NCBI RefSeq assembly: GCF_024266585.1
Contig: NZ_CP100647.1
Span: 2,089,001 to 2,153,000, forward strand
Origin: Xanthomonas sacchari
GTDB taxonomy: Bacteria; Pseudomonadota; Gammaproteobacteria; Xanthomonadales; Xanthomonadaceae
Reading direction: 5' to 3'
DNA: 64,000 nt
Each line of letters begins with the position of its first letter. Position 1 is the first letter of the stretch. The position numbers were made by a program, and so were the translations under genes. Of this stretch, positions 38,938 through 40,757 are shown one piece after another. The notes beneath the pieces were generated by a model, which was not told the origin of the DNA, did no database searches, and was given only the letters and a program-made list of their open reading frames with translations.

Positions 38938-38995
38938 CGGCGTCAGCCGCGACAGCCTTCCCGGTAACGCCCGTCGCGGCTGAAGCCGCTCCTAC
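38931..38995. repeat. Full copy of the Xanthomonas GTAGGAGCGGC palindrome
   Basis: Left arm GTAGGAGCGGCGTCAGCCGC, right arm GCGGCTGAAGCCGCTCCTAC, 25-base spacer. It follows the first 130-bp direct repeat, and is the undisturbed counterpart of the copy split by the IS element. Confidence 0.88.
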
Positions 38996-39183: not shown

Positions 39184-39313
39184 CCGTTGTGGGAGGGACT
39201 TCAGTCCCGACGGCATGCAGCCCGACGCACACGGCGTCTTCGCGCTTCGCGACGAAGGCCGCCGCTAGCGCGCCTTCCTGCCGCAGCTTGGCAAGCCGTG
39301 TTGCCCGTAGGAG
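39184..39313 (+). repeat. Second copy of the 130-bp direct repeat, ending at the IS insertion point
   Basis: Nearly identical to 38811-38937, ending GCCCGTAGGAG at 39313. The rest of its palindrome continues after the IS element at 40462 (CGGCTTCAGCCGCGACGG). Confidence 0.85.
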
Positions 39314-39320
39314 TCAACTG

Positions 39321-40244
39321 TCATGCCCCAGCGATAACCGGAGGAGCGTACGGTGCCTGATCGCGCGCGATGGCATTGAGCCAGCGCAGGAACTTGTGCA
39401 TGCAGGCGACGATGGCGACCTTGGCCGGCTTGCCGGCCGCGCGCAAGCGCGCGTAGGTGTTGGCCAAGGGGGATTTGGCGCGGATGCTGGCCCAGGTGGC
39501 CATGTACAGCACGCCTCGCACGTCGGCACGGCCGCCTTTGATGCGACGTTGGCCTTTCCAGCAGCCGCTGTCGTGATTGAACGGGGCCAGCCCGACCAGG
39601 GCGGCGAGCTTGCGTGGCGGCAGCGTGCCCAGCTCTGGCAACCGCGCGGCCAGGACCGCGCGCAGGATCGTGCCGAGCCCAGGTACCTTGGGCAAGCTCG
39701 AGCAGGTCTTGCCCTGCTGCTCGATCTCCTGCGTCAATGTCTGGATATGCTGGTTCAGCAGGGCGATCACCTCTCGGCAGCGGTGTTGCACCTTGGCGCT
39801 GGTGATGTGTTCCAGGCGCCGCCGATGGGCATCGCGCTGGCCCACCAGGGTGGCACGCAGGTCCAACAGTTCGCGAAGAGACTGCTGGTGCTCGGGCACC
39901 ACGGTCGTGGGCGTGGTCGGGATGTGCTGGGCGGCGATGGCCAGCAGGCGCGCGTCCAGGGCGTCGGTCTTGGCCTGCAGGCCCAAGGCTTGGGCTAGCT
40001 TGCGCGGACGATCGGCGGCCATCCGCACTGCAGGCAGGGCCGCCTCTCGGAGCACCCGCAGCACGGCATGTTCGTAGCCGCCACTGGCTTCCAGCACGAT
40101 CCGCTCGCAGCCCAGCTCCACCAGGCGTTGGGCCAGCACACGCTGCCCCTGTGGCGTATTGGGTTGGGTCCAGGCCTGCTCGTCCGGCAGGACATGAATG
40201 ACCAGTTCGGCCTTGGATACATCGATCCCGACATAGCGCCGCAT
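39321..40244 (-). CDS. IS110-family DEDD transposase (recombinase)
   Basis: Recombinase of 307 residues. The N-terminal RuvC-like DEDD domain has Asp8 (YVGIDVSK), Glu52 (VLEASGGYE), and Asp94/Asp97 (KTDALDARL). A helical coiled middle (140-180) leads to the C-terminal Transposase_20 domain with PGLGTILRAVLAARLPEL and the catalytic serine candidate Ser226 in LAPFNHDSGCWKG, followed by GGRADVRGVLYMA. All catalytic residues are present, so it should be active. The start at 40244 (MRRYVGIDVS) is chosen since upstream in-frame sequence belongs to the noncoding RNA region. IS110 recombinases work with a bridge RNA that pairs with target and donor DNA. Confidence 0.93.
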   Translation of the reverse strand: MRRYVGIDVSKAELVIHVLPDEQAWTQPNTPQGQRVLAQRLVELGCERIVLEASGGYEHAVLRVLREAALPAVRMAADRPRKLAQALGLQAKTDALDARLLAIAAQHIPTTPTTVVPEHQQSLRELLDLRATLVGQRDAHRRRLEHITSAKVQHRCREVIALLNQHIQTLTQEIEQQGKTCSSLPKVPGLGTILRAVLAARLPELGTLPPRKLAALVGLAPFNHDSGCWKGQRRIKGGRADVRGVLYMATWASIRAKSPLANTYARLRAAGKPAKVAIVACMHKFLRWLNAIARDQAPYAPPVIAGA

Positions 40245-40279
40245 AGACGTTCTCCGCAGTAGACTCAGGAACGAGAGCA

Positions 40280-40430
40280 CTCCTGCCGATGCCCATGCTT
40301 GTGGAGTTCGAGCTCGCGACTCGGGCAACTGTTCGGGCTGATGAGGCAGGAGATACGGGGTGCGGCGGCGCTGACTCCTACTCGTGCTTGCTGGCACTGC
40401 GGCTAAACGGCCTGCCGCACTCCGCTCTCA
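40280..40430 (-). ncRNA. Predicted IS110 bridge RNA with target- and donor-binding loops
   Basis: Read on the transposase strand. Target loop (40420-40360): outer stem GTGCGGC (40420-40414) with GCCGCAC (40366-40360), apical hairpin GTGC/GCAC (40397-40394, 40387-40384). Its 5' guide AGCCGC (40404-40399) is identical to the left target flank plus core C; its 3' guide GTAGGAG (40381-40375) is complementary to CTCCTAC on the right. Donor loop (40352-40280): outer stem CTCCTGCC with GGCAGGAG, inner stem GCCC/GGGC, apical CGAG/CTCG. Its 5' guide ACAGTTG (40332-40326) equals the element's right end; its 3' guide CACAAG (40303-40298) is complementary to CTTGTG at the left end. This is the organisation known for IS621 bridge RNA. 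The exact RNA ends are inferred. Confidence 0.82.
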
Positions 40431-40436
40431 CCTACA

Positions 40437-40461
40437 ACGATAGACCCTCATTTGACACAAG
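40437..40461 (-). promoter_or_regulatory. Half of a promoter completed only in the circular IS form
   Basis: On the transposase strand the left end reads CT-TGTGTCAAATGAGGGTC-TATCGT, with TATCGT at 40442-40437. The right end of the element ends in TTGA. In the excised circle TTGA joins CT to give TTGACT, exactly 17 bases before TATCGT: a strong sigma70-type promoter about 20 bases upstream of the bridge RNA. In the integrated state the flank GAAGCCG replaces TTGA, so the -35 is lost. Confidence 0.65.
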
Positions 40462-40757
40462 CGGCTTCAGCCGCGACGGGTTTTCCCAGGGATGCCTCGT
40501 CGCGGCTGAAGCCGCTCCTGCACGCGCGTTTCCTACGGTGATGCGCGCCCCCCGATGTCGCTTCCGACAAGCCCTCGCGCCTGGTGCTGAACCATGCGCG
40601 CCGCCGGCCTGTGGCATCCGCACGCCCCCCGCCATGCCATGCTCACGCATCCTGTACTCGCCGGTACAAACAATGCGCCGTTCCGGCGTACGCTACCGTT
40701 TGGTGCTGTCGCCATCCCGACCCGGCGACGTTCTTCCTCTCCCCAGGAACCAGCGAC
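40462..40757. repeat. Remainder of the split palindrome and leader of the efflux operon
   Basis: 40462-40519 is the rest of the interrupted palindrome (CGGCTTCAGCCGCGACGG, spacer, CGCGGCTGAAGCCGCTCCTG). The following 240 bases hold the upstream region of the emrA-like gene; AGGAACC precedes its TTG start. A precise promoter was not assigned. Confidence 0.7.

Follow-up and report, generated by a model that had tools for sequence, protein, structure and literature searches.

The question raised by this locus is whether the non-coding end of a mobile element, lying upstream of its recombinase gene, can be read as a bridge RNA that names in its own letters both the site into which the element has moved and the two ends of the element itself. 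The window, i.e., the whole stretch of 64,000 nucleotides that was analysed, contains at 40461-39314 of the minus strand one complete insertion sequence of the IS110 family, and we are highly confident that it moves by bridge-RNA-guided recombination. As far as letters can carry such a case, it consists of the anatomy of the RNA, the match of guides and targets together with their co-variation, the paired structure, a junction promoter motif, and the occupancy of the target.

With both copies of the CT core the element measures 1150 bp (39312..40461, minus strand) and with a single core copy 1148 bp, the ends being set by comparison of 11 genome copies and by the CT that element and target have in common. 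The open frame at 39321..40244 (minus strand) encodes a transposase/recombinase of 307 amino acids (DEDD_Tnp_IS110 and Transposase_20), in which Pfam recognises the N-terminal DEDD domain (PF01548, E 6.7e-16) and the C-terminal Transposase_20 domain (PF02371, E 6.3e-15), and its sequence matches the transposases of ISCro4 (9t56, E 1.1e-18) and IS621 (8wt6, E 5.6e-16). The non-coding parts comprise 217 bases upstream of the recombinase gene and 7 bases from the stop codon to the right core, and the element is flanked by two plus-strand genes, which encode a solute-binding protein and a HlyD-type protein. The single-contig genome of 4.89 Mb harbours 11 full copies with 98–100% identity and a short left-end fragment; one full copy is identical to the window copy over 1130 bases, and the others differ by up to 23 of 1130. 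In a search of a plasmid collection the sole match was located on a Xanthomonas sacchari plasmid and was 94.6% identical to the element. In another genome (G231; loci L057, L101, and L110-L112) the IS110 ends adjoin either runs of N or the end of another copy, an arrangement that points to copies in head-to-tail order or to an artefact of the assembly.

The occupied target around the element reads AGCCG-CT-element-CT-CCTAC, where the core CT represents the bases common to element and target. All 11 full copies of the genome interrupt the site between AGCCGCT and CCTAC inside a REP-like palindrome, and their outer flanks differ; by this comparison the left half of the interrupted target including the core (AGCCGCT) is placed at 40460..40466 and the right half including the core (CTCCTAC) at 39307..39313, both on the minus strand. 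The genome contains 246 intact copies of the 12-mer AGCCGCTCCTAC (122 and 124 per strand) versus 12 of the backwards pattern. An unoccupied intact AGCCGCTCCTAC is also present in the window in a REP-like repeat (38984-38995, plus strand), at a distance of a few hundred bases from the element. Several insertion sequences are known to target REPs, according to the part of the published work that is cited here (PMC1525189).

The predicted bridge RNA is about 165-175 nt long with approximate ends at 40262..40436 (minus strand), supported by covariation in 39 relatives, and all of its parts listed below lie on the same strand. In the target loop the left guide AGCCGC (40404-40399) equals the left target AGCCG plus the core C, and the right guide GTAGGAG (40381-40375) is the complement of CTCCTAC at 39313-39307; between them an inner hairpin GTGC/GCAC (40397-40394 and 40387-40384) can be drawn, and the loop is closed by the stem GTGCGGC/GCCGCAC (40420-40414/40366-40360). 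The donor loop is closed by the stem CTCCTGCC/GGCAGGAG (40352-40345/40287-40280) and contains the left guide ACAGTTG (40332-40326), equal to the right end of the element (39321-39315), and the right guide CACAAG (40303-40298), complementary to CTTGTG of the left end (40461-40456). The original prediction had already interpreted this non-coding region as a bridge RNA, and its guides and coordinates were reproduced when re-read by script. The two stem-loops described there are both present, but they are enclosed by an outer helix GAGAGC/GCTCTC (40429-40424/40278-40273), seen in the single-sequence and consensus folds, which had gone unmentioned. The claim that such a guide-target match is hard to obtain by chance also held: when the letters of the element's own target were shuffled, 0 of 200 shuffles matched the target loop as well, the test being done twice, with the left guide free in the loop (13 of 14 letters matched) and then with the left guide at its structural place.

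As a single sequence the upstream end folds as the outer helix holding two arms, and the stability of this fold is unremarkable (z −1.61; 13 of 200 shuffles fold as well). Among the 39 aligned relatives compensatory change is seen at 17 of the 30 consensus pairs, and the target-loop stem accounts for 11 of these 17. Covariation of the predicted structure among homologues, for which the prediction had asked, is thus found, though not every named stem is represented in it: the target-loop stem, called strong, does covary, whereas the inner GTGC/GCAC hairpin is absent from the consensus fold of the 39 relatives and the donor-loop stem keeps only 2 pairs there. The donor loop carries CAGTTG without variation in 39/39 aligned RNAs, whereas the target loop varies. 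A model built from this alignment (R1) was applied to 274 genomes of the class and found matches in 10 of them, namely, the present genome, another member of its family, and eight distant others; in one locus taken per distant genome (n=8) an IS110 transposase follows just downstream on the same strand in 6, a contig end intervenes in 1, and none is seen in 1. The match of R1 in the window extends over 40270-40437 with 134.9 bits, a score to be read with the window sequence being among the model's own sequences.

The reading was further tested on relatives at other sites. Both ends could be placed in 57 of the 102 loci examined, the dropped loci being 44 in which an end was unplaceable or the flanks consisted of N and one (L113) whose left flank lies beyond the contig; in L056 the core was set by hand for the guide-target comparison. 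The 57 placed elements give 22 loop strings, 21 of them distinct, as the loop of the window copy enters twice with a one-base offset. Compared with their own targets these strings match in a mean of 13.0 of 14 letters versus 9.28 for shuffled targets, with 0.36% of shuffles equal, when the left guide is free to move; this free scan put the left guide off its structural place in nine rows (L036, L070, L073, L079, L080, L087, L088, L121, and L122). With the left guide held at its structural place, a repeat that still allowed the right guide to move, the mean was 12.86 versus 7.74 and 0.23% of shuffles were as good. The own target was the best or tied in only 15 of the 22 strings with the left guide free and 14 with it fixed, because several REP targets resemble each other; when nine representatives were cross-scored against each other's targets, the own target came top or tied in 9/9 (tied in 3).

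The targets of these relatives fall into AGCCGC and AGTCGC REPs, further REP-like variants, attC-like sites, a GTGGATC site, and two others, and guide and target change together from class to class: AGCCGC or AGTCGC with CTCCTAC, TAACGCC with CTGAATT at the attC-like sites, and GTGGATC with CTACT. In three loci (L050, L105, and L107) the same G-to-A change is found in both guide and target (TAACACC). The attC-like sites possess the left flank CTAACGCC or CTAACACC, and in 6 of the 12 attC-like loci displayed GTTAGGC lies within 110 bases of the stop codon; sequences of this kind are those of attC ends. Relatives with an upstream bridge RNA at attC-like sites include L042, L044-L047, L050-L054, L056, and L058, and further ones are L060-L063, L095, L099, L105, and L107-L109, among others. 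The match is not always literal: four of the five copies fetched from genome G271 (L079, L080, L121, and L122), and likewise L070 and L073, carry an AGTCGC guide at an AGCCGC target, which corresponds to an rU-dG wobble, and the worst left-side match is 4/7 (L087 and L088). The occurrence of the same guides at unrelated targets, named beforehand as what would speak against the reading, was looked for and none was found, the 11 own copies all sitting at one site and the 57 placed elements showing partial mismatches at most.

On the donor side the right guide co-varies with the left end of the element. Two types of right donor guide and left end were observed, ACAAG with CTTGT (16) and ATAAG with CTTAT (13), so that 29 of the 37 sequences whose end was located pair fully (5/5); the set comprised 39 sequences, 2 of them without an end, and in L043 an incorrect CTT had been used to set the left end. 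In L099, which has guides of the attC type, the other donor type appears on both sides, in the guide and in the left end. The predicted right donor guide CACAAG is complementary to the left end in the window, but it is conserved only as ACAAG versus CTTGT. The layout of two loops, each with two guides around a shared core, is likewise present with one deviation: ACAGTTG does equal the right end, but in the window clade it stands one base off the core, the right end being ACAGTTG-A-CT in this clade and ACAGTTG-CT in others. The extra A is at 39314 of the window, and since the left end of the window clade is one base shorter, the spacer of the joined ends stays at 17 bases. In relatives the right end was located by a search for ACAGTTG(A)CT, so neither the left donor-guide match nor the −35 TTG discussed below is independent evidence there. 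In L058 the right end, just past the transposase stop codon, contains a tandem repeat which doubles the ACAGTTG donor sequence.

The joined ends would also supply a promoter. A −10-like TATCGT (40437..40442, minus strand) would come to stand 17 bases from the right-end TTGACT (39317-39312) only in the circle, and the extra A of the window clade yields this better −35; in the integrated form the target sequence replaces the first −35 bases. Among 25 distinct junctions drawn from 46 elements, with the separately fetched 11 own copies left aside, YAnnnT lies 17 bases from the −35 position in 25/25 and TAnnnT in 21/25, the TTG of the −35 being part of the motif by which the element ends were located. 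A promoter scan of the integrated element revealed no sigma-70-type site, which fits a junction-only promoter and supports no antisense promoter either. Judged by these motifs, a putative promoter is created at the RE-LE junction, as the available part of the IS621 description reports for that element (PMC11208160).

The proposed mechanism, in which transcription, RNA-protein binding, and chemistry are modelled on IS621 and its relatives, would be as follows. On excision the two ends would become joined around the CT core, giving rise to the promoter TTGACT-17-TATCGT, absent when the element is integrated, from which an RNA of about 170 nt would be transcribed out of the left end. Its first loop would pair with both strands of the REP-like AGCCG-CT-CCTAC and its second loop with the two joined element ends, whereupon the recombinase would join target and element ends at CT. 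The same region may possibly be read on the other strand as the small RNA sX15, in the manner of Asr9 of ISPpu9.

The other strand deserves a separate account. Rfam family RF02234 (sX15) matches the plus strand at 40270..40434 with 30.5 bits against a gathering score of 55; it is the only Rfam match at this region with E up to 1, and no Rfam match over a gathering score was found in the window. The antisense strand of all 11 own copies gives the same 30.5 bits. Because this is below the cut-off, the window can be assigned homology to sX15, not membership; scores of related loci range from 35 to 61 bits within the genus and go up to 182 for others. Of 297 genomes of the bacterial family, sX15 matches are present in 61 and exceed the cut-off in 41, some genomes having many copies. 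Ninety loci, a part of the listed matches picked to cover genomes and multi-copy sets, were fetched, and in 68 of them an IS110 transposase start lies 20-32 bases off on the opposite strand, a count which sought this one arrangement only (the first 30 loci were also listed with up to three transposase matches, unfiltered). Among the remaining 22 loci the contig ends no more than 152 bases away in 12 and after a further 309 bases in L120; 9 of the 90 have room but no transposase start detected at the threshold, one of these (L048) having a weak one. By sequence comparison, then, the sX15 family is the antisense strand of predicted IS110 bridge-RNA left ends.

A candidate antisense −10 (TAGACT, 40260..40265, plus strand) stands beside the Shine-Dalgarno sequence CGGAG of the transposase (40256-40252). 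In 44 of the 46 distinct sequences that remained once seven decayed or odd loci had been skipped, short ones dropped, and identical strings merged, an antisense TAnnnT lies in the stretch leading from the bridge RNA to the Shine-Dalgarno sequence, 6-11 bases from the end of the last helix of the bridge RNA and near the start of the sX15 model. A consensus antisense −35 was not found, the best of five spacings giving at most 3/6 in 39 of 43 sequences. Polarity counts of G-U pairs vary with the structure assumed, with 86 sense versus 11 antisense cells under the sense structure and 68 versus 107 under the Rfam structure.

On plasmid pXCV183 of Xanthomonas strain 85-10 the sX15 match (150.9 bits) is an IS110 left end, and locus L135 (1522-1680) preserves the full sX15/bridge region as an orphan in which the transposase match covers only the first 16 residues. 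A similar region is seen on six Xanthomonas hortorum plasmid records, one of which (L136) was looked at. It was from strain 85-10 that sX15 was reportedly described (Schmidtke and others, 2012), and it may be transcribed from the antisense strand, as its orientation in Rfam suggests. In the literature searched, which was covered in part, no link between sX15 and IS110 was found, and the Rfam line displayed gives none. Identity of sX15 with the integron-borne sRNA-Xcc1 was considered and rejected, as an Rfam search of 12 representative loci with E up to 0.1 returned sX15 in 12/12 and no sRNA-Xcc1; the same search gave two unrelated microRNA-type matches elsewhere. According to the portion of the source available, sRNA-Xcc1 sits in a symE cassette (PMC12444791).

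These facts allow a tentative proposal, to which we give somewhat less than an even chance, that the IS110 elements of Xanthomonas and its relatives carry a conserved antisense sX15 acting as an anti-bridge RNA and providing copy-number control. In this case sX15 would be made from integrated copies and would show complementarity to the bridge RNA over its entire length as well as to the recombinase mRNA leader. Delivered in trans by these copies, in which the bridge promoter is itself broken, the RNA would limit or tune the bridge RNA coming from excised circles. An orphan copy with its transposase reduced to a short remnant persists on pXCV183.

An alternative would be to regard the antisense sX15, a small regulatory RNA, as the functional RNA of this region and the sense guide matches as a by-product of the REP-like sequence of the element. 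The presence of RF02234 on the antisense strand of every own copy, the 182 bits reached in relatives, and the TAnnnT conserved at the expected antisense −10 place fit this explanation, but the guides track targets as unlike as the attC-like sites, the donor guide changes together with the element end, and the sense junction −10 keeps its distance, so we regard it as very improbable. The targets of the own copies, REP-like in 11/11, along with the known attraction of several insertion sequences to REPs, might instead mean that the recombinase alone recognises the REP hairpin and that the guide matches are captured target sequence. This is the least probable of the explanations considered, as relatives with nearly the same donor loop occupy attC-like and other sites, and the letters of their target loops change accordingly.

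It may also be asked whether the element has decayed and lost its mobility, leaving a fossil bridge RNA. The differences of up to 23 of 1130 bases between the window copy and others would fit this; however, the 98–100% identity of 11 full copies, one of them identical to the window copy over 1130 bases, and the open frame of 307 amino acids in the window copy itself make such decay scarcely credible, marginally less so than an sX15-only function. Guided recombination by a bridge RNA encoded on the transposase strand is retained as the reading of this locus.

In summary, the bridge-RNA reading is right and ordinary in kind for a well-covered family, as bridge RNAs have already been predicted by published models in 85.7% of IS110s according to the accessible part of that study (PMC11208160). 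The added value is a natural series of retargeted loops and the recognition that sX15 is the antisense strand of such loci. In this family of predicted bridge RNAs the target loops, of several REP types and attC-like, have been exchanged in nature on a near-constant donor loop, so that the rules of retargeting, among them wobble tolerance and a donor-core offset of one base, can be studied on natural material. That the antisense RNA has a regulatory role is put forward here as a proposal; with sX15 re-read as the antisense of IS110 bridge-RNA loci, its role in controlling the movement of the element becomes a direct question.

Among known systems the closest is IS621, which in the published account, as far as available, shares with the present element a non-coding RNA at the left end, the order of target loop and then donor loop, the CT core, a REP target, and a promoter at the RE-LE junction (PMC11208160), and which has a related recombinase. 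It differs in the letters of guide and target and in having no extra A between the donor match and the core, and the separate 5′ stem-loop of IS621 is not predicted in the window element, where the modelled outer helix encloses both loops instead; for lack of this stem-loop the element is filed under the IS110 family and not under the IS621 subtype. With Asr9 of ISPpu9 the candidate antisense RNA shares its position over the 5′ untranslated region of tnp, but ISPpu9 also has a downstream sense RNA, Ssr9, in the part of the study cited (PMC8450116), while in the window element the antisense RNA is a candidate, with no −35 recognised. The sX15 model covers in its full length the DNA region of the predicted bridge RNA, on the opposite strand. 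The seekRNA of IS1111 and IS110 elements, in the accessible text of its description (PMC11187229), resembles the RNA predicted here in originating from the longer non-coding region and in matching both target strands; that region lies upstream of tnp in IS110 types, as it does here, and the protein motif G--P----SG of that description is found in the translation as GLAPFNHDSG. With the long non-coding region upstream and not downstream of the transposase, and only 7 bases from the stop codon to the right core, the element is not of the IS1111 type. The targeting of attC is described there for IS1111 types (PMC11187229), whereas in the present series it is IS110-type relatives that use attC-like sites.
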